Origin: an uncultured Bacilli bacterium
Lineage (GTDB): Bacteria > Bacillota_I > Bacilli_A > RF39 > UBA660
Assembly (NCBI GenBank): GCA_947589675.1
Contig: CANQCI010000007.1
Coordinates: 1-49,638, forward strand
DNA: 49,638 nucleotides
Reading direction: 5' to 3'
Of this stretch, positions 1,495 to 46,168 are shown piece after piece. Position 1 is the stretch's first letter. Every line of letters starts with the position of its first letter. Position numbers and translations under genes: made by a program. A model generated the notes under the pieces. The model ran no database searches and was not told where the DNA came from. It saw nothing but the letters and a program-made list of their open reading frames with translations.

Positions 1495-1785
1495 ATGAAA
1501 AATAAGTATCAAAGATTAAATAAAGAAGATAGGAAAAAAGCTCGAGATCGATTTTATCGTACTCCCTTTGGTAAGGAATTAAAACCTCGTTTACAACGTA
1601 TTTTAATTATTGGCATATTATTATTAATCTATGCTAGTTATCTTCTAATTGATGCGATATTTAAAAAAAGTATCTGGGGGGCTTTAGCCGCCACCGCAAT
1701 TTACCTTTTTGCTTTATTTTTCCTAATTGGTAGACATAAAATAATTGTCCGTGATGTAAATGATTTTTTAATTAAAAGAAAATAA
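1495..1785 (+). CDS. Small two-helix membrane protein, unknown function
   Basis: 96 residues. The N-terminal ~40 residues are strongly basic and contain many lysines and arginines (DRKKARDRFY), which favours a cytoplasmic N-terminus. Two hydrophobic segments follow at roughly 37-57 and 62-80, separated by a short KKS loop, and the tail is again basic. There is a clear SD (GAGG) eight bases before the ATG. I do not recognise a family. The gene sits 18 nt behind the tRNA-Arg terminator, so read-through may contribute to its expression. A second small membrane-protein gene follows 32 nt downstream on the same strand. Confidence 0.65.
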   Translation: MKNKYQRLNKEDRKKARDRFYRTPFGKELKPRLQRILIIGILLLIYASYLLIDAIFKKSIWGALAATAIYLFALFFLIGRHKIIVRDVNDFLIKRK

Positions 1786-1817
1786 TTTATAATAAACATG
1801 AAACATAAAATCTTATT

Positions 1818-2189
1818 ATGAGTATTGATGAAAAATTTAAAAGATTAAAAGAAGAAGATTTTATTTGGATTGTTTATTTTTTTATTGCTGCAGCAGCCCT
1901 ATACTCTAATAATGAAGAAAGAAAATATTATTTAACCCGCAATAATAGTTTTTATAAAAAGCAAAAAACAATCAATATTATTATTTTAACGATTGCTTTT
2001 TTCATTTACTTATATTTTATTTTAAATCAAACCGAAGATTTAAAAAATATGGAAAAAAATTTTTATAGCCAAACTTATCGAGAAAATTTTGCGAGGCTCA
2101 TAGCTTCCATTCTCTTTTTAGTGGGTGGGGCTATTTATGTGGTTTTAGAAATTGTCCAAACAGAGCCTGATGAAGTAGGATTTATTTAG
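1818..2189 (+). CDS. Small three-helix membrane protein, unknown function
   Basis: 123 residues. Hydrophobic segments lie at about 16-30 (FIWIVYFFIAAAALYS), 51-68 and 93-113, separated by charged lysine-rich stretches. No SD is visible before the ATG, but TATAAT occurs just after the previous stop (around 1789), so it may have its own short-leader transcript. The last eight bases overlap the 3' end of the oppositely oriented deacetylase gene, and no terminator fits between the two converging genes. No family recognised. Confidence 0.55.
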   Translation: MSIDEKFKRLKEEDFIWIVYFFIAAAALYSNNEERKYYLTRNNSFYKKQKTINIIILTIAFFIYLYFILNQTEDLKNMEKNFYSQTYRENFARLIASILFLVGGAIYVVLEIVQTEPDEVGFI

Positions 2190-3387
2190 TAAAATACCGG
2201 TAACTATTATGTTTTAAAATTGGCTGGTTATAGCTATTTGCTAAATCGCTTACCGTAACTGCTTGATAACCTCGGACATACAATTCTGGTAAAATTTGTT
2301 TTATGGCATCAATGGTTGTCCGATACATATCATGAAATAAAATAATACTTCCCTCTTTAACATTGTCTAAAACATAATTTACAATATGCTCAGTATCCCG
2401 GTACCGCCAATCCTCAGTATCAAGGTTCCACAAAATGAATGCCGTATCTAAAGCTTCTTTAATCTCATTATTAATGGCTCCATAAGGCGGACGCATGAAA
2501 ACAAAGGTTTTACCAATAATATTAGTTAAAAGTTCATTACTTTGGTTAAATTCGGCAATAGCTTTAGTTAAATCTTCCCTTTTTAAGTTTTGATGAGCCC
2601 AGGAGTGATAACCAATTTCATTCCCACTTTCATTAACATATCGCACAACATCTTGAAAGGACTGAAGGCGATTACCTACCATAAAAAATGTTGCGTGAAC
2701 ATGGTTTTTATTAAGAGTATCAACAAGCTCTTTGGTTAAATTTGATGGGCCATCATCAAAAGTTAAACTTACTAATTTTTTATTAGTATTAATAACTGAA
2801 CCCATTTCATTTTGATAATCCGGATTAATATTAACTGGAATTGTTAAATAATCTTTTATTTCATTATAATTAACTTTTAAAGATAATTCTTCATTAATAC
2901 TTGGATTAATAACATAATTATAAAAATAGATAATTAGTTCATTTTCATAAAAAGCATAAACATTATCATGATCCATATTACTTAAAACTGAGGCAATAAA
3001 ATCAGGATATTTTAAAGCAATTAATTCCTTAATTTTGGTAGCAAAATTAGTTATTTCGGCTGGCTTAATTAATTCGGTAAAATTAACTTCTTCCCCCGTT
3101 TCATAAGTAAATAGATGACTTTCATATAAATTATTATTTTTAATAATCACACTAGTATATTCTTGATTTAAATCAGTTTCCCAAACTTTCCCAGTATTTA
3201 AACTAGCAACATAATCACTAATTTTCTTACTTTTAACTGGTTTCTTTTCTTTAAATATAGTTAAATGTCCTTCATTTATTAAAATATTGTTATTAAAAAA
3301 ATGGAAGTAACTTATACCTAAAAGAAGAAAACCTAGAGCTAAAAAGCCCAGAAAATTTAAAGATATTTTGCGTAACCGATACTTCAT
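2182..3387 (-). CDS. Membrane-anchored polysaccharide deacetylase (PdaC-like)
   Basis: 401 residues. An N-terminal membrane anchor (about 10-30) is followed by a region of ~150 residues resembling the DUF4163/DUF3298 part of Bacillus PdaC, then a NodB-type deacetylase domain from about 205 to 385. Family motifs are visible: TFDDGPS (motif 1, catalytic and metal aspartates, ~209-215), HSWAHQN (metal histidines, ~262-268), RPPYG, a D-W-R motif (EDWRYRD) and the final ILFHDMY. All residues expected of a CE4 enzyme are present, so it probably removes acetyl groups from peptidoglycan or another surface glycan outside the cell. SD AGAGGT precedes the ATG. It lies 16 nt downstream of an ABC-2 permease gene, so it is likely the last gene of that operon. 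Confidence 0.85.
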   Translation of the reverse strand: MKYRLRKISLNFLGFLALGFLLLGISYFHFFNNNILINEGHLTIFKEKKPVKSKKISDYVASLNTGKVWETDLNQEYTSVIIKNNNLYESHLFTYETGEEVNFTELIKPAEITNFATKIKELIALKYPDFIASVLSNMDHDNVYAFYENELIIYFYNYVINPSINEELSLKVNYNEIKDYLTIPVNINPDYQNEMGSVINTNKKLVSLTFDDGPSNLTKELVDTLNKNHVHATFFMVGNRLQSFQDVVRYVNESGNEIGYHSWAHQNLKREDLTKAIAEFNQSNELLTNIIGKTFVFMRPPYGAINNEIKEALDTAFILWNLDTEDWRYRDTEHIVNYVLDNVKEGSIILFHDMYRTTIDAIKQILPELYVRGYQAVTVSDLANSYNQPILKHNSYRYFTK

Positions 3388-3403
3388 AATATACCTCTTT
3401 CTT

Positions 3404-4828
3404 TTATATATTTTTAATATTTCGTTTTTTAAAGACTAATTTGGCCGTGATAATCATTACTAAATAATAGATTAAACAAGTAATTAAGGATTGCACCAAA
3501 GAAATACCATAGGTACTTTCTTGATTAAATAATAGATATGTTAAATCCCAATTGGGGGTTACAAAATATTTTAAGAAATTTAAATTATAAGTTACAAATA
3601 AACTATTAATAATATCTGATGCTATATACCCACATAAAGACAAGGTTATAGCAAAAGCATTACTACATATAAGGGTTGATAAACTAAAAGCTAAAGTAGC
3701 AAGTAAAATGATTTTGGGCATTAAATAAATTGTATTTAAAAGAAAATATTTAAAGACATTAATTGTTTCAATCGCCCCGATTTTAAAGTTATAACCAACC
3801 ACCGGTATCGCTAAATCCTTAAAGCCAAAGAATATTCCCCCGAAAAGCATTTCGCCCCCAGCAAAGAAAAGAATGATAAAGACCAGCATAATTAAGACTG
3901 TGATAAATTTAGCTCTTAAAATAGTACTCCGTTTATAAGGAATAGTTAAAAGAGATTTAATGGTTCCTCGGTGAAACTCATCACTAACAATAGTCCCGGC
4001 AATCATAATCACAAAAATAATAATTAAAAACCCATATTCATTATAAAAATCGGCTAATATTCCCCTTACTGATGCCATATTATTAGTATCTACTTTATTA
4101 TCTAAGATATACTGATTTTCCATAAATTCCGCATAATCCCCTTGATAACTTTTCTTTAATTCCTCCGTCTTAGCATATTCATAATCTAATCTCCCATCTA
4201 AAAGCATCGTTTGATTTTCAATAGTTTGACTTAAATAATTATCACTATACCCAACATCATTTTGTAAACGATAATTAAGTAAATATTTATTATATTCATA
4301 AGCTTTTAAAGTTCGATTACTATCTAAAGTTTGATTATTTTCTTCCGTATATTTAATATTTTCATTTACTTGTTCTAACTCTAAATTAACAAAATACCGC
4401 CAATTATTACTATCTAATTTAAATATTAAATCATCAATTTGTTCTCTTAACTTAGAAGCTTTCTCTTCATCATTATTAACATATAAATAATTATAATATT
4501 GATTTATTTTATCAGCAACATAAGTATAATACTTATTTACTTGCCATTCATTAGCATTTTTTAACACAAATTCTTCTTGTTCTTTTTCGGCTAAAAGATT
4601 AGCATACTTACTCATACTTCCTTTTTCTTTATCAAAGTTAGCTATTTCGTTTTTTAAATATTCTAAATGTTCTTCATCCCCATAAGAAACATAATAATTA
4701 CTATTAATATCCATTGTTTTATAAATATAATTAGTTAAAACAATATATCCTAACATTAAAAATAAAAATATAATTGTTCCTTTTTTATGAAATACTTTAT
4801 AAATTTCATTATATACTAATCTAACCAC
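3404..4828 (-). CDS. ABC-2 type transporter permease
   Basis: 474 residues. One membrane helix near the N-terminus (TIIFLFLMLGYIVLTNYIY) is followed by about 220 polar residues rich in Tyr, Asn, Glu and Lys that should form an extracytoplasmic domain. Five or so further helices follow between about 265 and 470. The motif DEFHRGTIKSLLTIPYKR, just after the second helix, is typical of ABC-2 permeases. It starts with GTG, overlapping the last eight bases of the ATPase gene, so the two are translationally coupled and form one exporter. The substrate is unknown; the adjoining deacetylase hints at a cell-envelope role. Confidence 0.85.
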   Translation of the reverse strand: MVRLVYNEIYKVFHKKGTIIFLFLMLGYIVLTNYIYKTMDINSNYYVSYGDEEHLEYLKNEIANFDKEKGSMSKYANLLAEKEQEEFVLKNANEWQVNKYYTYVADKINQYYNYLYVNNDEEKASKLREQIDDLIFKLDSNNWRYFVNLELEQVNENIKYTEENNQTLDSNRTLKAYEYNKYLLNYRLQNDVGYSDNYLSQTIENQTMLLDGRLDYEYAKTEELKKSYQGDYAEFMENQYILDNKVDTNNMASVRGILADFYNEYGFLIIIFVIMIAGTIVSDEFHRGTIKSLLTIPYKRSTILRAKFITVLIMLVFIILFFAGGEMLFGGIFFGFKDLAIPVVGYNFKIGAIETINVFKYFLLNTIYLMPKIILLATLAFSLSTLICSNAFAITLSLCGYIASDIINSLFVTYNLNFLKYFVTPNWDLTYLLFNQESTYGISLVQSLITCLIYYLVMIITAKLVFKKRNIKNI

Positions 4829-5711
4829 GTTTCTTACCCCCAGTTTTTTGTAAAAAGGCTTCTTCTAAACTTAACTCAACATGTTTTACTTCATATATAT
4901 CTACTTTTTCTTTAACTAATTTTCTTATAATTTTCGCTATCTGTTCTTTTTTCGCTTTAACATAAAAACTAGTTTCTTTTACTTCATACATTCCGGGAAT
5001 ATTTAAATCTTTAGTAGAACTAACAACAAATAAATATTTTTCCGTATTCTTTTTAAAGTCTTCCACATTACTAGCTTCTATTATAACCCCATTTTCAATG
5101 ACACAAACTTTATTACAAAAACTTTCTAATTCCGCTAAGTTATGACTCGATATTAAAATGCCCATCCCTTCTTTGGCCAGCTTTTTTAATAAATCCCTTA
5201 AGTCTTTAATTCCCTCAGGGTCTAAGCCATTCGTTGGTTCATCTAATATTAATAAATTAGGATTAGCAATTAAAGCCCGAGCAATCCCAAGCCTTTGCCG
5301 CATCCCGAGCGAATACTTGCTAACTTTATCATGAATCCGGTCTTTTAAGCCTACCATTGTTGCTAATTCCAAAATTTTTTCTTCCCCTACATCTTGGTAA
5401 TAATTAGCCATTAATTTTAAATTTTGATAGCCAGTTAAATACATATATAAATCCGGATTTTCAACAATTGCCCCCACTTTAGCAATGGCTTTAACAAAAT
5501 CTTTTTCAATATTATAACCATTAATAATAACACTACCTTTATCAATCCCAATTAACCCTAGTATTAGTTTTATCGTCGTGGTTTTCCCACTTCCATTAGG
5601 TCCAATAAAAGCTAAAATATCTCCCGCATTAATTGTAAAAGAAACATCTTTTAAAACTTGTTTATAGCCAAGCTTCTTATTTATTTTTTGACATTCTAAT
5701 ATTTTTTTCAT
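4821..5711 (-). CDS. ABC transporter ATP-binding protein (ABC-2 exporter)
   Basis: 296 residues. Walker A GPNGSGKTT at about 37-45, signature YSLGMRQRLG near 133-142, Walker B LLILDEPTNGLD near 154-165 and the switch histidine in ISSHNL. This is a complete DrrA/CcmA-type ATPase with a C-terminal extension of ~80 residues. I choose the ATG at 5711 over the GTG one codon upstream, because GAGG lies 7 nt before it. The SD is part of a small hairpin (AACCT TACG AGGTT). The partner permease overlaps its stop codon. An extended -10 box overlaps the end of the upstream xer gene, so the exporter may be transcribed separately. Confidence 0.9.
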   Translation of the reverse strand: MKKILECQKINKKLGYKQVLKDVSFTINAGDILAFIGPNGSGKTTTIKLILGLIGIDKGSVIINGYNIEKDFVKAIAKVGAIVENPDLYMYLTGYQNLKLMANYYQDVGEEKILELATMVGLKDRIHDKVSKYSLGMRQRLGIARALIANPNLLILDEPTNGLDPEGIKDLRDLLKKLAKEGMGILISSHNLAELESFCNKVCVIENGVIIEASNVEDFKKNTEKYLFVVSSTKDLNIPGMYEVKETSFYVKAKKEQIAKIIRKLVKEKVDIYEVKHVELSLEEAFLQKTGGKKRG

Positions 5712-5730
5712 CACTTAACCTCGTAAGGTT

Positions 5731-5739
5731 ATTATATCA
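5731..5739 (-). promoter_or_regulatory. Extended -10 element for the exporter operon
   Basis: TGATATAAT on the minus strand. Its TGA is also the stop codon of the xer gene. There is no convincing -35 hexamer. Confidence 0.4.
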
Positions 5740-6633
5740 TCTTTCCCCATTTTTTTCTTCTCTTTTAAATGTTTTTAAATAAACTTCTCGAAGCCTTTCA
5801 TTAGAAACATGCGTATATATCCCCGTGGTATTTAAATTAGCATGCCCCAAAAGTTCTTGCACCGTTTTAATATCAGCTCCATTATTAAGAAGATGAGTGG
5901 CAAAAGTATGCCGGAAAGTATGGGGAGTCACATGACTTTTTAAAGCTAAATCAGCTACCACATCTTTGATCATTTTTTCAACACTATATATATCATAGGG
6001 CTTACCTTTATTTAGAAAAAGATATTCACTATTATTGGTATCTAACAAAGGTCTTACCTCTTTTAGATATGTTGTTAATATTTCTTGGGCATATTCCCCA
6101 TAATAAACTATTCGCTCTTTACTTCCTTTACCCAATATTCTAATTTTTAATTCAGATTCATCAATATCTTTTAACTTAATATTAACCATTTCACTAACCC
6201 GGCAACCCGTGGCATAAAACATTTCGACAAATAATCTTTTAATAATTCCCTCATTACTTTTAATATCAATACTATCAATAATTTGTCTTAATTCTTCATA
6301 ACTTAAATAATTAGGTAACTTCCGGTCTAATTTAGGATTTTTAATGGTTTTAAATAAGTTTTCGGAAACAACCCCCTCATCCAAAAGATAATTATAAAAA
6401 CTTCGGGCAGCACTAATCTTCCTCGAGATAGTCGTTTTCTTTAATTTCTTAGCATCTAATTCTTTTAAGTATTCTCTGATATCATCTCTTTTTAAATTTT
6501 GATAATTATAATGTTTAACTTTAAAAAAAGAAGTTAATCCTAATAAATCTTTTTGATAACTAATAATCGTATTAGGTGAAGCATTAACCTCTTTTTGTAA
6601 ATAATTTAAATATTCCTTAACTTTTTCTTCCAT
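5737..6633 (-). CDS. xerC: Tyrosine recombinase, XerC/XerD type
   Basis: 298 residues, the normal length for chromosomal Xer proteins. The N-terminal SAM-like core-binding domain (1-95) is followed by the catalytic domain. All catalytic residues are present: Arg in GCRVSE (~143), Lys in GKGSKER, HxxR in HTFRHTFATHLL (~236-247), His in LLGHANLNTT and the nucleophile Tyr in GIYTHVS. It acts with a partner Xer protein on dif sites to resolve chromosome dimers. Nothing around it looks like an integrated element, so a housekeeping Xer is favoured over a phage integrase. XerC and XerD cannot be told apart by eye. SD GAGG precedes the ATG. The previous gene ends two bases upstream, so they share an operon. 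Confidence 0.85.
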   Translation of the reverse strand: MEEKVKEYLNYLQKEVNASPNTIISYQKDLLGLTSFFKVKHYNYQNLKRDDIREYLKELDAKKLKKTTISRKISAARSFYNYLLDEGVVSENLFKTIKNPKLDRKLPNYLSYEELRQIIDSIDIKSNEGIIKRLFVEMFYATGCRVSEMVNIKLKDIDESELKIRILGKGSKERIVYYGEYAQEILTTYLKEVRPLLDTNNSEYLFLNKGKPYDIYSVEKMIKDVVADLALKSHVTPHTFRHTFATHLLNNGADIKTVQELLGHANLNTTGIYTHVSNERLREVYLKTFKREEKNGER

Positions 6634-7810: not shown

Positions 7811-8403
7811 TATATATTATTTAATCTCCTAATAAACTGAGGTATATCATAATTTAATAATCTATATTCGTTATAAGTTCTTAAAGCCTTATAATATTCT
7901 ATATTAACACCAGTTACTCCACTAATATTTATAAAGTTTATGGCATTTTCAACACCTTTAATGTCGGCATCAATCTCCAAAAAAAAGTTATCATGATGCC
8001 CCTTATAAAACTCTTTATCAGCCAAATAAATAATTTTTTCGATATCATACATTACCCTAGAAAATGATGGTTGGTTCCTTAATTTCTGGGGACACTCGAG
8101 TTGCAGTCTATGCTCTAATTCATGAAAGCAGGCATAGATTAAAAAGACAAGACCATTATCATTAGTATTAGTTGGATTATTATAATTTTTTTGATTTATT
8201 TTATCAATCACATCAGAAAAAATATAAATTGATTTACTCTCTGCTAGATAAGTCCCTCCAGCATTTGGAGAAATATTCATATTCGGATGTAATAACTCGG
8301 CATCTTTTCTACTTTGATATACTATTCGATAATCAGTTTGAAATGAACTATTAAATATACTACATATTTTTTTCACAACATCATTATAATCATACTTTTT
8401 CAT
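7810..8403 (-). CDS. Putative zinc metallopeptidase-like protein (HExxH), small
   Basis: 197 residues. The segment YACFHELEHRLQ contains HELEH, a zinc-binding HExxH motif. About 47 residues later, FLEIDADIKGVENA supplies a glutamate/aspartate pair in the position of a gluzincin third ligand. The same pair of motifs (NHEFAHQYQ and IEIDATEKGWE) occurs in the 560-residue protein that closes pilin-like operon 2, so the two are probably related despite different lengths. No signal peptide is visible, so it is likely cytoplasmic or exported by an unknown route. Good SD (GGGAG) before the ATG. It lies between the membrane accessory gene and a coupled hypothetical gene. Catalytic activity is inferred. 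Confidence 0.5.
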   Translation of the reverse strand: MKKYDYNDVVKKICSIFNSSFQTDYRIVYQSRKDAELLHPNMNISPNAGGTYLAESKSIYIFSDVIDKINQKNYNNPTNTNDNGLVFLIYACFHELEHRLQLECPQKLRNQPSFSRVMYDIEKIIYLADKEFYKGHHDNFFLEIDADIKGVENAINFINISGVTGVNIEYYKALRTYNEYRLLNYDIPQFIRRLNNI

Positions 8404-8461
8404 TTTTTCTCCCTAAATAAATTGTAATAGTAGAAAAGTGACGATATCTTAAAATCATCAC

Positions 8462-9058
8462 TTAATTACTATCTACACACTTAAAATCTAAGCCCCGTAA
8501 ACGCCAATTACCATCAACTTTTATTAAATTAATATCATTATAAAAGGTTGATAAAATTACGGTATCTTCTTTTTCTTCTGGATTGATATTATAAGTTTTC
8601 GTATAATCTGTTGGTATCTCTTGAAAATTTTGACAAGCTGGTTCCTTTTTTAAAACATATAATATACCACCAAAATCATAATAATGATTATATTCAGGAT
8701 CACTAAAATATTTCCGATAATGACTAGAACTACTTTCTGTATAATATTTATTAAATAAATCCATTATTTTGGTAACACTGTTATAGTTCTTTAATTTTTC
8801 ATCAATAACAGCATAATATTCTTGTCCATCGAATGTTGCCGTGGCATCTCCTACTTCGATATTCCCCATTAAGATATAAGAAGCTAAATAATCTACTTGA
8901 ATCAATTCTTTAAATAAAGCTTCATCATTAGTTTTATTGCGAGAAATTAATTTAAAAACTACGACTAAACATACGACTACAATCACACTAATTAAGATTA
9001 CCATAACTAAAATTATTTTCTTAATCTTTTTATTTTTTTTTATTTTATCCGTTTCCAT
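8462..9058 (-). CDS. Single-pass membrane accessory protein of the pilin-like cassette
   Basis: 198 residues. A lysine-rich N-terminus (~15 residues) precedes one strong membrane helix (about 15-38) and then a soluble domain outside the membrane of about 160 residues, with two cysteines (ACQNF, FKCVDSN). It begins 11 nt after the stop of the giant prepilin-like gene and has a good SD (GAGG). In operon 2 the two giant prepilin-like genes are each followed by a gene of the same architecture and size, so this is a recurring partner. It may help assemble or anchor the large protein. No named family recognised. Confidence 0.55.
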   Translation of the reverse strand: METDKIKKNKKIKKIILVMVILISVIVVVCLVVVFKLISRNKTNDEALFKELIQVDYLASYILMGNIEVGDATATFDGQEYYAVIDEKLKNYNSVTKIMDLFNKYYTESSSSHYRKYFSDPEYNHYYDFGGILYVLKKEPACQNFQEIPTDYTKTYNINPEEKEDTVILSTFYNDINLIKVDGNWRLRGLDFKCVDSN

Positions 9059-35685: not shown

Positions 35686-38550
35686 TTATACGACAATTCT
35701 AAATGGTTTAGAAACCGAACCATCTTTTGATGTATCCACAATTACGTTGACATTAGTATTTAGATAAAAGGACGGTCGAACCCCGAACGCACGGCTGCCG
35801 ACGCTGATGTCGCCCACAAACCCGGCGGCGCCGACAATGAACGCAGCGTTGGAATTGCTGGAGTTGCGCGATATAGTCCATTCATTAACATTATTAAATA
35901 ACCAGTTATTTTCTCGGTTGTTATTTTTTGTATTATCATAACCATATAATGAAGATGCCCAACTATTTTGTTCGCTTGCAAATCCATAGTCCGAAGCATA
36001 CATCAAACCAATTTGAGCGGGTACTGTTGGGGTTGATTTTATTTCTGCATCATACATTACTTTTGGTGTTACCTTATAATCGCTATGTCCTCCCACATGC
36101 CATGTTGTTGTCGCTATTTTGTTTTTCCATGTTGTACCTAATTTACTTAAATAACCTCCATTTAACGCTTGATATAATGTGCTACTTCCCCATGTATTAT
36201 CAGCTGTTTTATTCCAGTAAAACCCATCACTTGGAGCTACTTTTACTCTTTTTAAATTATCATAACTTCCTTTGGGTGGCGTACCATTACTAGCTATTCC
36301 TAATTCGGCACTGGTTATATATTCAGACTTGATTAATTTGATTTGATTGTTAAATACGCCTATTATCCGATATAAATTGGTATCGGGGCATGTTGCTCCA
36401 CCATTGTTATAAGCTTCACTACCATTTCCAAAACAAACAAAGTTATTTGGATTATTTCCAGAATATCGATAGCTATTATCCTTTGCACTATTAGCTAAAC
36501 TGGTTGTATGTTGTGCTAACGTTCCACTTCCAGATGTTCCTACTTTACTTATAACATATGAACTCAATGTTTGAGTTTTTAAAATTGTTACTGTACAAGT
36601 TCTTGCTGATGTTACATTACTCGCTGTTAATGTTTTTTTATCTGCACTCAATGTACAATTTGAACCACTTACTGTTGCTGTTGATAAAAGATAGCCACTA
36701 CTAGCTGTAATAGTAAATGTTACACTTTCATTATATTTTACTGACTTTGGTGATTTATCAACTGTTCCACCTGTAATATTTACGGTGACATTATATTCTA
36801 ATTTAGGAATTGTAACTGTACAGGTTGTTGCCGCTGTTACATTACTGGCTGTCAAAGTTTTATTGCTATTACTTAAAGCACAACCGGTTCCAGCCACTGT
36901 TGCCTTACTTAAATTATATCCAGTCGTGGCTGCTATGGTAAAAGTTGTACTTTTACCATGGTCAACTGTTGCTTGCGTAGGTGTAGCCGTTCCACCTGTT
37001 ACAGTTGCTTTTACTAAATAAGTATTTAAAGTCGTTCCTTTATAACTTGCATCTTCTAATATTTTAGTACGACTATTACTATCAGTTACTCGGATTTTAA
37101 ATGTATAAGCTGTTGCTTTTGTTAAACTTGTAAATGAATAGGAATATGTTCCGTTCGTATTAGCTCCTTGATACCAATTAGTATCACCATTTCTTTGATA
37201 CTCAACTTTACTTACAGTCCCTGTCCCATTTTCAAATGTTCCATTTACTTTTATGACGCTTGAGGTTATATCTGATACAGTAAATGTTTTCACACTTGGA
37301 TACACATAAGTTTCCGTACTTTCTTCTTTATCAAAACTATCAACCGATTCTCTATCTAATTCATCTCTTACTTTAACTTGAATATTATAGTTAGTTGTAT
37401 CAACTAATCCAGTAAATTCAAAAGTATCACTTGTTTGCCATGCACTCCAATTACCATATGTATCATTATTTTCTATTTTAAAAGCATATTCTTTTACGTT
37501 TTTAGTTCCAGCAACAGCTATCGCTTTTACTTTAATACTTGTTAAAGTTTTACTCACTAAAGTTAAATCAGTTACTTTAACATTTAAGTATTCATCAGTT
37601 TTAATAATAGCTGTTTTTATAGCACTCATTATCCCTTGCATATCTTTAGAATAAGCATAAACTTTATAACTTTGATTATCTTTTAATGGCTCTCCATCTA
37701 TTTCCGTAAATGTATGAGTAGGTTCATCTGACTCAATATAATTTGGTTCTAACCTTTCAGCAATACTCATAAGCCTTATTGTTTCAGGTTCTTCATCAGT
37801 TTCTTCAATGGCATAATAATATTTATCTATTTCTTCGGTATGTTTTTCGTTTTCTAATAAATTAACTGTGATACTTTCATAATCTTTAGTACTTTCAACA
37901 ATACTATTTATTTCAGGCATAACATAAGTTTCTTTTTCTTCCGTGGTTATTAAAACTTTCCCCTCAAAAGTTTTACCGGTATTTTTTTGTTGGTCAGCTT
38001 CTAGATTTTTTAAAGTTACTTCAAAGTTCCAAGTTTCTTCTTTTCCATCAGCACTATCAGCTTTTATTTCATCTTGATATGCTACTTTAAAAGCACCACG
38101 TCTTTTGGTGATATCAAAACCTTGTAATGTTTCATCGAATATTAATCCATCAATATTTTTTATCTCAGTTCCATCTGGGTTTGTTACTTTTAAAAGTAAT
38201 TCAACTTCATTCGGTTCAGTTGAATAAGTAAAATCATTAGCATCGATGATAAAATAAACATTATATTTATCTTCCGCTTGGTTTGTTGTATTATTAGGTA
38301 CTAACTTAGCCATAGCTGTGGTTGTACCTGATTTATCACCCGCACTTTGATAAAAATCATCGGCTGATGCTGTGATATTGATTGGTGTTCCTGCATGAAA
38401 AGTTAAAGAGTCGGTGGTTCCTGCTCCGACTTCGATGTCCGCATGACCCCCACTTCCTTTTTGAGCCGCAAAGTAGGCATATGTTGCTCCTATAACCATT
38501 GCTAAAAGCATTATTAAAGCAATAGCCAATAAACCTTTTCTATTTTTCAT
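35686..38550 (-). CDS. SipW-type surface protein with C-terminal lectin-like DGR target domain (1)
   Basis: 954 residues from the ATG at 38550 (an upstream in-frame start lacks an SD). The signal segment ends GATYAYFAAQ, the SipW/TasA type. Then: a TasA-like module (about 25-205), fibronectin-like beta domains, two repeats of the type VTGGTATPTQATVDHGKSTTF with a C...C pair each, and a C-terminal domain from about 700 on (DNSYRYSGNNPNNFVCFGNG, LYRIIGVFNNQIKLIKSEYI, WHVGGHS, GLMYASDYG, EWTISR, GVRPSFYLN). This end resembles C-type-lectin/FGE-like domains used as DGR targets. Residues 895-926 are encoded by a GC-rich variable block. Paralogue of the gene at 43772, with extra modules. The promoter contains a T20 tract. 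Confidence 0.75.
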   Translation of the reverse strand: MKNRKGLLAIALIMLLAMVIGATYAYFAAQKGSGGHADIEVGAGTTDSLTFHAGTPINITASADDFYQSAGDKSGTTTAMAKLVPNNTTNQAEDKYNVYFIIDANDFTYSTEPNEVELLLKVTNPDGTEIKNIDGLIFDETLQGFDITKRRGAFKVAYQDEIKADSADGKEETWNFEVTLKNLEADQQKNTGKTFEGKVLITTEEKETYVMPEINSIVESTKDYESITVNLLENEKHTEEIDKYYYAIEETDEEPETIRLMSIAERLEPNYIESDEPTHTFTEIDGEPLKDNQSYKVYAYSKDMQGIMSAIKTAIIKTDEYLNVKVTDLTLVSKTLTSIKVKAIAVAGTKNVKEYAFKIENNDTYGNWSAWQTSDTFEFTGLVDTTNYNIQVKVRDELDRESVDSFDKEESTETYVYPSVKTFTVSDITSSVIKVNGTFENGTGTVSKVEYQRNGDTNWYQGANTNGTYSYSFTSLTKATAYTFKIRVTDSNSRTKILEDASYKGTTLNTYLVKATVTGGTATPTQATVDHGKSTTFTIAATTGYNLSKATVAGTGCALSNSNKTLTASNVTAATTCTVTIPKLEYNVTVNITGGTVDKSPKSVKYNESVTFTITASSGYLLSTATVSGSNCTLSADKKTLTASNVTSARTCTVTILKTQTLSSYVISKVGTSGSGTLAQHTTSLANSAKDNSYRYSGNNPNNFVCFGNGSEAYNNGGATCPDTNLYRIIGVFNNQIKLIKSEYITSAELGIASNGTPPKGSYDNLKRVKVAPSDGFYWNKTADNTWGSSTLYQALNGGYLSKLGTTWKNKIATTTWHVGGHSDYKVTPKVMYDAEIKSTPTVPAQIGLMYASDYGFASEQNSWASSLYGYDNTKNNNRENNWLFNNVNEWTISRNSSNSNAAFIVGAAGFVGDISVGSRAFGVRPSFYLNTNVNVIVDTSKDGSVSKPFRIVV
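35773..35868 (-). repeat. DGR-type variable repeat VR1
   Basis: 32 codons, 66% GC (63 of 96 by count) in a ~30% GC gene, encoding R-N-S-S-... to V-R-P at residues 895-926. It aligns without gaps with VR2 at 43856-43951. Shared codons are CGC, TCC, AGC, GCG, GTC, GGG, GTG and GCG; nearly all other codons differ at positions 1 and 2. The flanking codons (EWTIS before, FYL after) differ only silently between the genes. Confidence 0.82.
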
Positions 38551-38632
38551 TAATTCCAACCCTTCCATAAGACTATAAAGTAAATGTAAATTGACATTTT
38601 TCACTAGTCATATACTTTGTATCATGGGGATG

Positions 38633-43741: not shown

Positions 43742-43773
43742 GAAAAAGGAATTTACAGTAATTGTAAATCCTT
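43742..43773 (-). terminator. Terminator of lectin protein gene 2
   Basis: Minus-strand stem AAGGATTTACA/TGTAAATTCCTT (one mismatch) followed by T, overlapping the stop codon. Confidence 0.75.
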
Positions 43774-46168
43774 ATACAACAATTCTAAAGGGGTGATCAA
43801 CATCACCAAGTGAGTCATCTGCTTTGACTTGGACATCGGAGTTAAGATAAAAGGCTGGACGTACCACGTACGCATATTGGTGAACGTAGCTGGTGTACAC
43901 ATTCCCGCGGATGGCGACATAGTACGCATTGGCATAGCTGCTGGAGTGGCGTGAAATTGTCCATTCCTCAACACTATTATATAACCAGTTATTTTCTTGG
44001 TTACTATTACCATCATTATCATAATCATATAATTGTGATGCCCAACTATTTTGTTCGCTTGCAAATCCATAGTCCGAAGCATACATCAAACCGATTTGTG
44101 CGGGTACTGTTGGGGTTGAGTTTATTTCTGCATCATACATTACTTTTGGAGTTACCATTTCTGTACTATGTCCTCCCACATGCCACGTTGTTGTTGCTAT
44201 TTTATTTGTCCACGTTGTACCCAAATTAGTTAAATAACCTCCATTTAACGCTTTATATAAGCTACTGGTACTCCATGTATTATCAGCTGCTGTTTGATTC
44301 CATTTAAATCCATCTGTTGGATATGCTTTTACTCTTTTTATCCTATCTATATTACCTCCTTTTATTGGCGTGCCATCACTAGATATTCCCAATTCAGCGC
44401 TGGTTATATATTCCGATTTTATTAATTTGACTTGATTATTAAATACACCAATTATCCGATATAAATTAGTATCGGGACAAGTATTTACTTTACCATTGTT
44501 ATAATCTTCACTACCATTTCCAAAACAAACAAAATTATTTGGATTATTTCCGGAATAACGATAGCTATTATCTTGAGCACCAATCGTATCGTGTTTAGCT
44601 AATGTTCCTAAACCAACATTCTTTTTATTTTTAGATGCTAAATTAGTTACACATGTTGCTAAATTTCCATCACTTGGACATGAGTTAGTTAAAGTATATA
44701 CTTGTTCTTCTATACTTACTCTACAAGCTTTATCACTTGTTACATTACTAGCTGTTAATGTTGCATTATTATTACTTAAAACACAATCCCCCTCTGTTAC
44801 TTTAGCGGTTGCTATATCATAACCAGCACTTGCTGTTATTGCAAAAGTTGCCGTACCATTTTCGACAACTGTTGTGCTAGGTGGAGTGGATGTTCCGCCT
44901 GTTACTTGGACATTTACCGTAAATGGTGTTGTCATTTCAGATTTATCAAAACTATTGGTGGCTTCTTTATTTAATTCATCTCGAGCTGTTACCTGAATTT
45001 TATAGGTATTGCCAGCTTTTAAACCAGTAAATTCAAATGTATCACTTTCTTGCCAGTGCCATTCTCTATAAGTTTCATGATTTTCTATTTTAAATCCGAA
45101 CTCAGTAACATTCTTAGTTCCATTTAATGCTGTTGCTTTAACTTTAATAGTGTTATGAGTTTTTTCACTAACACTGACATCTGTTATTTGAACTCTTTTA
45201 TATTCATCAGTTTTGATGATAGCTGTTTTAACATTACTTCTTATTCCTTGAACATCTTTGGAATAGGCATAAACTTTATAATTTTGATTATCTTTTAAGG
45301 AAACTCCATCACACTCAGTAAAAACATGAGTTGCTTCTGTAGTTTCAACATAAGTTGGTTCTAATTCTTCAGCTATACTCATAATTTTTGCCATTTCAGG
45401 TTCTTCAATTGTTTCTTCAATGGCATAATAATATTTATCTATTTCTTCGGTATGATTTTCGTTTTCTAGTAAACTAATAGTTATACTTTCATAGTTTTTA
45501 GAGGTTTCGGCAATACTGTTTATTTCAGGCATTACATAAGTTTCTTTTTCATCAGTAGTTATAAGGACTTTCCCTGAAAAAGTTTTACCTGTATTTTTTT
45601 GTTGGTCAGCTTCTAAATTTCTTAAAGTTACCTCAAAGTTCCAAGTTTCTTCTTTACCATCAGCACTACTAGCTTTAATTTCATCTTTATAAACCACTTT
45701 AAAAGCACCACGTCTTTTGGTTATATCAAAACCTTGTAATGTTTCATCGTATATTAATCCATCAATATTTTTTATCTCAGTTTCATCGGGGTCAGTTACT
45801 TTTAAAAGTAATTCAACTTCATTTGGTTCAGTTGAATAAGTAAAATCATTTTCATCAATAATAAAATAGACATTATAATAATCGGTTGCATCATTCGTCG
45901 TATTATTTGGTACTAACTTAGCTGTGGCTGTCGTACTTCCCATTTTATCTCCAGCGGTTTGATAGAAATCATCTGACGAGGCGGTAATATTGATTGGGGT
46001 GCCGACCTTAAAAGTGAGTGAGTCAGTTGTTCCTGCTCCAACTTCAATCTCCGCACTCCCACCAGTTCCCTTTTGGGCGGCAAAATAAGCATAAGTAGCA
46101 CTTATCACTGTAATTAACAATAAGAAAAGAGCGATAATAGTGCTTGTCGTTCTTTTTTTAGTTTCCAT
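43772..46168 (-). CDS. SipW-type surface protein with C-terminal lectin-like DGR target domain (2)
   Basis: 798 residues. The signal segment ends SATYAYFAAQ (SipW/TasA type). Then a TasA-like module (about 25-205), fibronectin-like domains to about 410, one VTGGTSTPPSTTVV repeat with a cysteine pair, and the same C-terminal domain as the protein at 35686 (SYRYSGNNPNNFVCFGNG, LYRIIGVFNNQVKLIKSEYI, WHVGGHS, EEWTISR, VVRPAFYLN). Residues 740-771 correspond to the variable block VR2. Compared with its paralogue it lacks one fibronectin-like unit and one repeat. It lies between cdsA-rseP and the yqeG operon with its own terminator. No reverse transcriptase is nearby. Confidence 0.75.
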   Translation of the reverse strand: METKKRTTSTIIALFLLLITVISATYAYFAAQKGTGGSAEIEVGAGTTDSLTFKVGTPINITASSDDFYQTAGDKMGSTTATAKLVPNNTTNDATDYYNVYFIIDENDFTYSTEPNEVELLLKVTDPDETEIKNIDGLIYDETLQGFDITKRRGAFKVVYKDEIKASSADGKEETWNFEVTLRNLEADQQKNTGKTFSGKVLITTDEKETYVMPEINSIAETSKNYESITISLLENENHTEEIDKYYYAIEETIEEPEMAKIMSIAEELEPTYVETTEATHVFTECDGVSLKDNQNYKVYAYSKDVQGIRSNVKTAIIKTDEYKRVQITDVSVSEKTHNTIKVKATALNGTKNVTEFGFKIENHETYREWHWQESDTFEFTGLKAGNTYKIQVTARDELNKEATNSFDKSEMTTPFTVNVQVTGGTSTPPSTTVVENGTATFAITASAGYDIATAKVTEGDCVLSNNNATLTASNVTSDKACRVSIEEQVYTLTNSCPSDGNLATCVTNLASKNKKNVGLGTLAKHDTIGAQDNSYRYSGNNPNNFVCFGNGSEDYNNGKVNTCPDTNLYRIIGVFNNQVKLIKSEYITSAELGISSDGTPIKGGNIDRIKRVKAYPTDGFKWNQTAADNTWSTSSLYKALNGGYLTNLGTTWTNKIATTTWHVGGHSTEMVTPKVMYDAEINSTPTVPAQIGLMYASDYGFASEQNSWASQLYDYDNDGNSNQENNWLYNSVEEWTISRHSSSYANAYYVAIRGNVYTSYVHQYAYVVRPAFYLNSDVQVKADDSLGDVDHPFRIVV
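43856..43951 (-). repeat. DGR-type variable repeat VR2
   Basis: 32 codons, 55% GC (53 of 96 by count), residues 740-771. Gap-free partner of VR1: 39 of 96 positions differ, split 13/19/7 over codon positions 1/2/3. 20 of 32 residues change. Only four of the 57 shared positions are adenine, as expected if adenines of a common template are the mutated sites. Confidence 0.82.

Follow-up and report, generated by a model that had tools for sequence, protein, structure and literature searches.

Known systems with scattered targets

The diversity-generating retroelement (DGR) of Treponema denticola that acts on TvpA (PMC4891356; PDB 2y3c) uses one template and one reverse transcriptase (RT) for up to seven scattered genes. 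The system described here, whose cassette lies on contig C37 of the genome of an uncultured Bacilli bacterium, resembles it in its scattered targets, in the leftover tips of other template types, in the C-lectin fold of the target and in the presence of Avd. Unlike the TvpA DGR, it comprises 11-13 tips, places DUF6273 domains on modular stalks with a SipW-like N-terminus, includes an MSL ORF and resides in a Bacilli host. DGR targets with DUF6273 domains also occur in Faecalibacterium prophages and among the tentaclins (PMC11792537, PMC10743442), and these proteins likewise carry a C-terminal variable repeat (VR) within DUF6273, formed by a hairpin and flanking loops, together with FN3/Ig-like domains. 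Those proteins, however, are phage receptor-binding proteins targeted in cis, whereas the targets considered here belong to a bacterial chromosome and mostly lie far from the cassette.

Many targets have also been described for the DGRs of Thiohalocapsa PB-PSB1 and of cyanobacteria (15 at nine loci, and 76 remote ones across cyanobacterial genomes), for which action in trans was inferred from perfect non-adenine matches (PMC10907252, PMC7517822). In those systems, the targets are mostly intracellular sensors served by several templates, whereas here they are predicted-exported stalk proteins that mostly share one template. Finally, the DUF6273 domain of the Thomasclavelia ramosa IgA peptidase (9qa6, PMC12402451) is part of a protease, with no variable repeat reported in the portion of that source drawn on here, whereas in the present proteins it is the tip-bearing C-terminal domain. 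The mechanism is a known one; what is unusual is a single template for so many remote, predicted-exported tips on stalks of different length, and a literature search for this system in this lineage found no description.

Two variable proteins with different stalks

The window, that is, the whole 49,638-nt stretch of DNA that was analysed, is contig C7 of a 1.46-Mb genome in 60 contigs. The following features, all encoded on the minus strand, are relevant here, with their basis in brackets.

43772..46168 (-): variable protein 2, 798 aa (ORF and translation, Pfam, models)
46073..46168 (-): N-terminal hydrophobic helix with ATYAYF motif, a SipW-type export signal by resemblance (helix 3-32 in the model)
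44975..45187 (-): FN3-like unit, residues 328-398 (PF00041 at E=0.0011, below the Pfam cut-off; the full-length model matches FN3 tandems)
44711..44917 (-): single cysteine-pair repeat, about residues 418-486, two in the paralogue (alignment with the paralogue)
43775..44662 (-): DUF6273 / C-lectin-like domain, roughly residues 503-798 (PF19789, AlphaFold2 model, structural matches 9qa6 and 2y3c)
43856..43951 (-): VR2, variable repeat of 32 codons (adenine-biased differences from the template TR1, ungapped; GC contrast)
35686..38604 (-): variable protein 1, 972 aa (ORF; alignment with the 798-aa protein)
35773..35868 (-): VR1, the paralogue's variable repeat (changes at 21/33 template adenines and at 2/63 remaining bases)

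Variable protein 2 consists of an N-terminal helix, a beta-domain stalk, one Cys-pair repeat and a C-terminal DUF6273/C-lectin domain that carries VR2, PF19789 scoring above the Pfam cut-off over residues 622-776. Its C-terminal sequence reads ...EWTIS-RHSSSYANAYYVAIRGNVYTSYVHQYAYVVRP-AFYLNSD..., where the 32 residues of RHSSSYANAYYVAIRGNVYTSYVHQYAYVVRP are coded exactly by the 96-nt block 43856-43951(-). VR2 thus lies at the 3' end of the gene for a C-lectin-type domain and stops 27 codons before the stop codon. Its GC content is 55%, against 33% in the remainder of the gene, and 53% of its codons end in C, against 11% in the rest. VR1, in turn, encodes RNSSNSNAAFIVGAAGFVGDISVGSRAFGVRP at 66% GC; taking both blocks together, C-ending codons amount to 53-59% as opposed to 9-11% elsewhere, and the rest of the genes has about 33% GC.

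The block at 55% GC had been delimited by an earlier note, and its 32 codons were confirmed to the base. The same note had described two paralogues sharing a nearly identical lectin scaffold and differing in their tips and in the number of upstream modules, and this description holds: SYRYSGNNPNNFVCFGNG, WHVGGHS and EWTISR are present in both proteins, 20 of the 32 residues differ between the VR1 and VR2 tips, and the scaffold before them is nearly constant (13 differences in the preceding 80 residues). Variable protein 1 has the same architecture plus one FN3-like unit and has two Cys-pair repeats; relative to it, the 798-aa protein lacks a stretch of about 170 residues with an FN3-like unit and a cysteine-pair repeat, which supports the view that variable tips are carried by stalks of unequal length.

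More than 30 proteins of the genome are homologous in the N-terminal region, and about 20 proteins end in the lectin domain. Other endings occur on the same type of N-terminus. Two proteins of locus L171 on contig C12, at 1762-3984(-) and 4123-6438(-), share the SipW-like N-terminus and have an apparent Hint-type end (..TPKHRFYVIDKGW..LLVHN) instead of the lectin, and three near-identical family members (L174, L175 and L176, on C54, C52 and C42, respectively) present a glycine-rich C-terminus (GAGGGSSYISGFDGC...) on a similar N-terminal region.

Fold and predicted export

The C-terminal 300 residues of variable protein 2 are modelled by AlphaFold2 with a pLDDT of 93.6. Its best structural match, with Z 16.0 over 200 residues, is 9qa6, the N-terminal domain of the IgA peptidase of Thomasclavelia, which is a DUF6273 domain (PMC12402451). 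The model also matches TvpA (2y3c; Z 6.8), which is an established DGR protein, as well as Legionella Lcl, FGEs and C-lectins; taken alone, these lower-Z matches are only suggestive. No PDB entry was matched when the C-terminal domain was searched by sequence profile. According to the secondary structure of the model, VR2 (residues 242-273) forms two loop-joined strands with a loop on each side, as do the VRs of the phage DUF6273 targets (PMC10743442).

The full-length model (pLDDT 84, pTM 0.44) predicts an N-terminal helix followed by a chain of beta-domains matching FN3 tandems. The N-terminus shows an ATYAYF-type motif after the hydrophobic helix and matched no NCBIfam signal-peptide model, and the genome encodes four SipW-type TIGR02228 signal peptidases above the cut-off. 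Given the modelled helix and these peptidases, the variable proteins are likely to be exported and may be displayed on the surface.

A complete retroelement with a remote template

When the genome is searched with VR1, roughly twelve blocks of similar sequence emerge, plus a single short match that lies close to a reverse transcriptase on C37. This short match, TR1, is an AAC-rich copy outside the target gene, with the sequence CGC AAC TCC AGC AAT TCC AAC AAT GCG TTC AAT GTC AAC AAC AAC GGG AAT GTG AAC AAC AAC AAC GTC AAC AAA ATT GCG TTC GGG GTT CGG CCG. After it, and oriented the same way, come a 124-aa MutS-domain-I-like ORF (MSL), a 121-aa Avd and a 358-aa RT, so that the locus makes up a complete DGR. 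The RT is of the DGR type, with the motif IGNMTSQ and a PHROG reverse transcriptase match at 1e-69, and its best solved relative in the PDB is the 8ub7 group (E=9.5e-26), which we take to be the BPP-1 bRT-Avd complexes. Avd is recognised by PHROG 3206, 'Avd protein of DGR' (2.5e-9); its NCBIfam match, DivGenRetAVD (4e-9), scores under the curated cut-off. The MSL ORF, which adjoins Avd and RT, is of the PF01624 type, and MSL proteins with this domain have been described as DGR accessories (PMC10053308). The MSL-Avd-RT order recurs in about 45 related loci.

Directly after the RT lies a small ORF (L042, C37, 13019-13312(-)) without Pfam or NCBIfam match; ORFs of this kind, of 80-97 aa, recur in about half of the related MSL-Avd-RT cassettes. 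Two other RT candidates of the genome were set aside, one on C5 (L001) that is group-II-intron-like from its sequence alone, and a weak match on C9 (L004) that contains stops.

When the tips are compared with TR1, the differences concentrate at template adenines. VR1 differs at 21/33 adenines and 2/63 other bases (Fisher p=8e-11), the cis target on C37 at 19/33 and 1/63, and VR2 at 17/33 and 11/63 (Fisher p=6.7e-4, ungapped), with the third base kept in 13 of its 14 AAY codons. The tips on C6 (non-adenine differences at 1/63), C40, C34a, C43, C4, C29, C8a and C15 give p from 2e-10 to 3e-4. No gaps were needed to align VR1, VR2 and the tips on C37, C34a, C40 and C15, which are as long as TR1; among these, VR2 is the worst fit to the present TR1. 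Tip lengths vary from 93 to 108 nt across the genome. The gapped alignments of the other tips favour adenine mismatches, and for this reason two control paralogues without DGR-type tips, on C19 and C8b, are important; they show no adenine bias (p=0.16 and 0.24). The tips on C23 and C34b fit TR1 more weakly (non-adenine differences at 14/63 and 19/60) and, in view of these many differences and of the bias of gapped alignment, are not counted as firm. A conservative count is thus 11 tips that fit TR1 well and two more that fit it weakly.

The idea that VR1 and VR2 draw on the same remote template therefore stands in part: the template exists, beside an intact DGR RT and Avd, and it fits VR1 with two non-adenine differences, whereas it fits VR2 only loosely. 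The notion of two diversified receptors was too narrow, as both belong to the 11-13 tips of one system in the genome.

Taken together, the block at 43856-43951 is very probably a remote (trans) VR of a bacterial DGR. The C37 cassette would transcribe TR1, the Avd-RT complex would copy it while placing random bases opposite the template adenines, and the mutated cDNA would replace the homologous 3' block of a target gene. With AAY template codons, positions 1 and 2 could change and a stop would never be produced. The residues written in this way would form a presumed ligand-contacting hairpin in a DUF6273/C-lectin domain on an exported modular stalk (FN3-like plus Cys-pair). Eleven scattered genes of the genome, perhaps 13, carry tips that match TR1, and VR2 itself would come from a TR1-like template that is older than, or different from, the present one. 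The cassette, the template, the adenine-specific differences, the number of tips and the fold class are established from sequence, while retrohoming in trans, surface display, ligand binding and present activity are inferred. Weighing against this explanation are the 11 non-adenine differences of VR2, four of them at its 3' end, the failure to find a fitting template or a common downstream hairpin (both detailed below) and the NCBIfam score of Avd.

Template versions and the origin of VR2

Differences at two codons bear on the template behind VR2. At codon 26, TR1 has ATT, while VR1 has CGT, VR2, C34a, C40, C15 and C43 have TAT, C29 has TCT and C4 has GGT, all of these tip variants being reachable from AAT, the codon found in the template of a same-genus relative. 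At codon 28, TR1 has TTC, while VR2, C6, C4 and C29 have TAC, C40 and C23 TGC, C43 AGC and C15 AAC, all reachable from AAC. It thus seems that other versions of the template wrote several of the tips and that the template itself has changed, since the tips point to AAT and AAC in place of the present ATT and TTC of TR1. The cis tip on C37 comes closest to the current TR1, with one exception in 63.

After correction at codons 26 and 28, nine non-adenine mismatches remain in VR2. Its 3' end has diverged (GTGGTACGTCCA versus GGGGTTCGGCCG), four of the 11 non-adenine differences falling in the last 11 bases. The last bases of the VR are where homing in BPP-1 needs the IMH element. Perfect stems of 5-7 bp follow some of the tips, and no hairpin downstream is common to all. 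A search for a template fitting VR2 in its own genome and in 385 other genomes of the family (each base or A, at most 3 mismatches) returned only VR2 itself. Exact scans of IMG/VR with the VR2 flank and with TR1 gave no match and thus no other strains. The adenine bias and the 13/14 third bases kept, set against the 11/63 other differences, indicate that VR2 was written from a template like TR1 and not exactly from today's TR1. A tip left behind by a lost template type has a precedent in T. denticola SP32 (PMC4891356).

These observations are also compatible with VR2 being a retired DGR target, written by an earlier template and now drifting because its 3' end no longer matches TR1, so that only VR1 and the better-matching tips would still be rewritten. 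This alternative is a serious one, if somewhat short of an even chance: VR2 has the most non-adenine differences among the same-length tips and a diverged 3' end, and strains of T. denticola retain targets whose template types have been lost (PMC4891356). VR2 nevertheless retains the template composition (55% GC, 53% C-ending codons) without a stop, and its internal non-adenine differences mostly fall in codons compatible with AAY, which argues for another template version and not for random decay. A broader proposal, which we regard as rather unlikely, is that the template changes over time and tips with a diverged 3' end escape rewriting; the repertoire would then be layered, with fresh tips (the cis tip, VR1) beside kept ones (VR2), in a generate-then-keep scheme on interchangeable stalks.

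A mechanism that needs no reverse transcription, in which the tips of the 30-odd paralogues diversify through gene conversion or ordinary recombination, would suit a large paralogous family with near-identical scaffolds and tip lengths that differ by whole codons. It is nonetheless very improbable and already disfavoured by the adenine test, since it fails to predict differences confined to the adenines of a non-coding copy beside RT and Avd (other bases: VR1 2/63, C37 1/63, C6 1/63), and the same adenine pattern appears in a second species.

The genome contains a second DGR cassette, on C55 (L128, 275-4086), with its own variable protein, VR, TR, MSL and Avd. An insertion interrupts its RT at about residue 116-121; contigs C55 and C19 both end at this insertion, and the RT resumes at the end of C19 (L043, about 7880-8590). 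That this cassette, having its own target, TR, MSL and Avd, wrote VR2 is scarcely credible, as its RT is split and its TR, when compared, differs and does not fit VR2.

Distribution and significance of the repertoire

In a same-genus genome (G011), a single TR is accompanied by seven tips. Six of these were compared, and their differences are again adenine-restricted, with adenine:other ratios of 14:1, 13:3, 17:0, 14:4, 17:1 and 22:2. Relatives of the RT are present in 42 of 99 relative genomes, those named being mostly uncultured gut Bacilli or Tenericutes MAGs, several of them from rabbit.

In this 1.5-Mb gut bacterium, one template fits 11-13 predicted-exported receptor-like proteins, for which we presume ligand binding, and tip and stalk length vary independently; the sister species shows the same with its seven tips. 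A large DGR survey states that its own method is blind to remote targets (PMC8144416), and repertoires of remote targets are therefore probably under-counted. By sorting tips according to template version, the order and fate of rewriting events become readable from a single genome.
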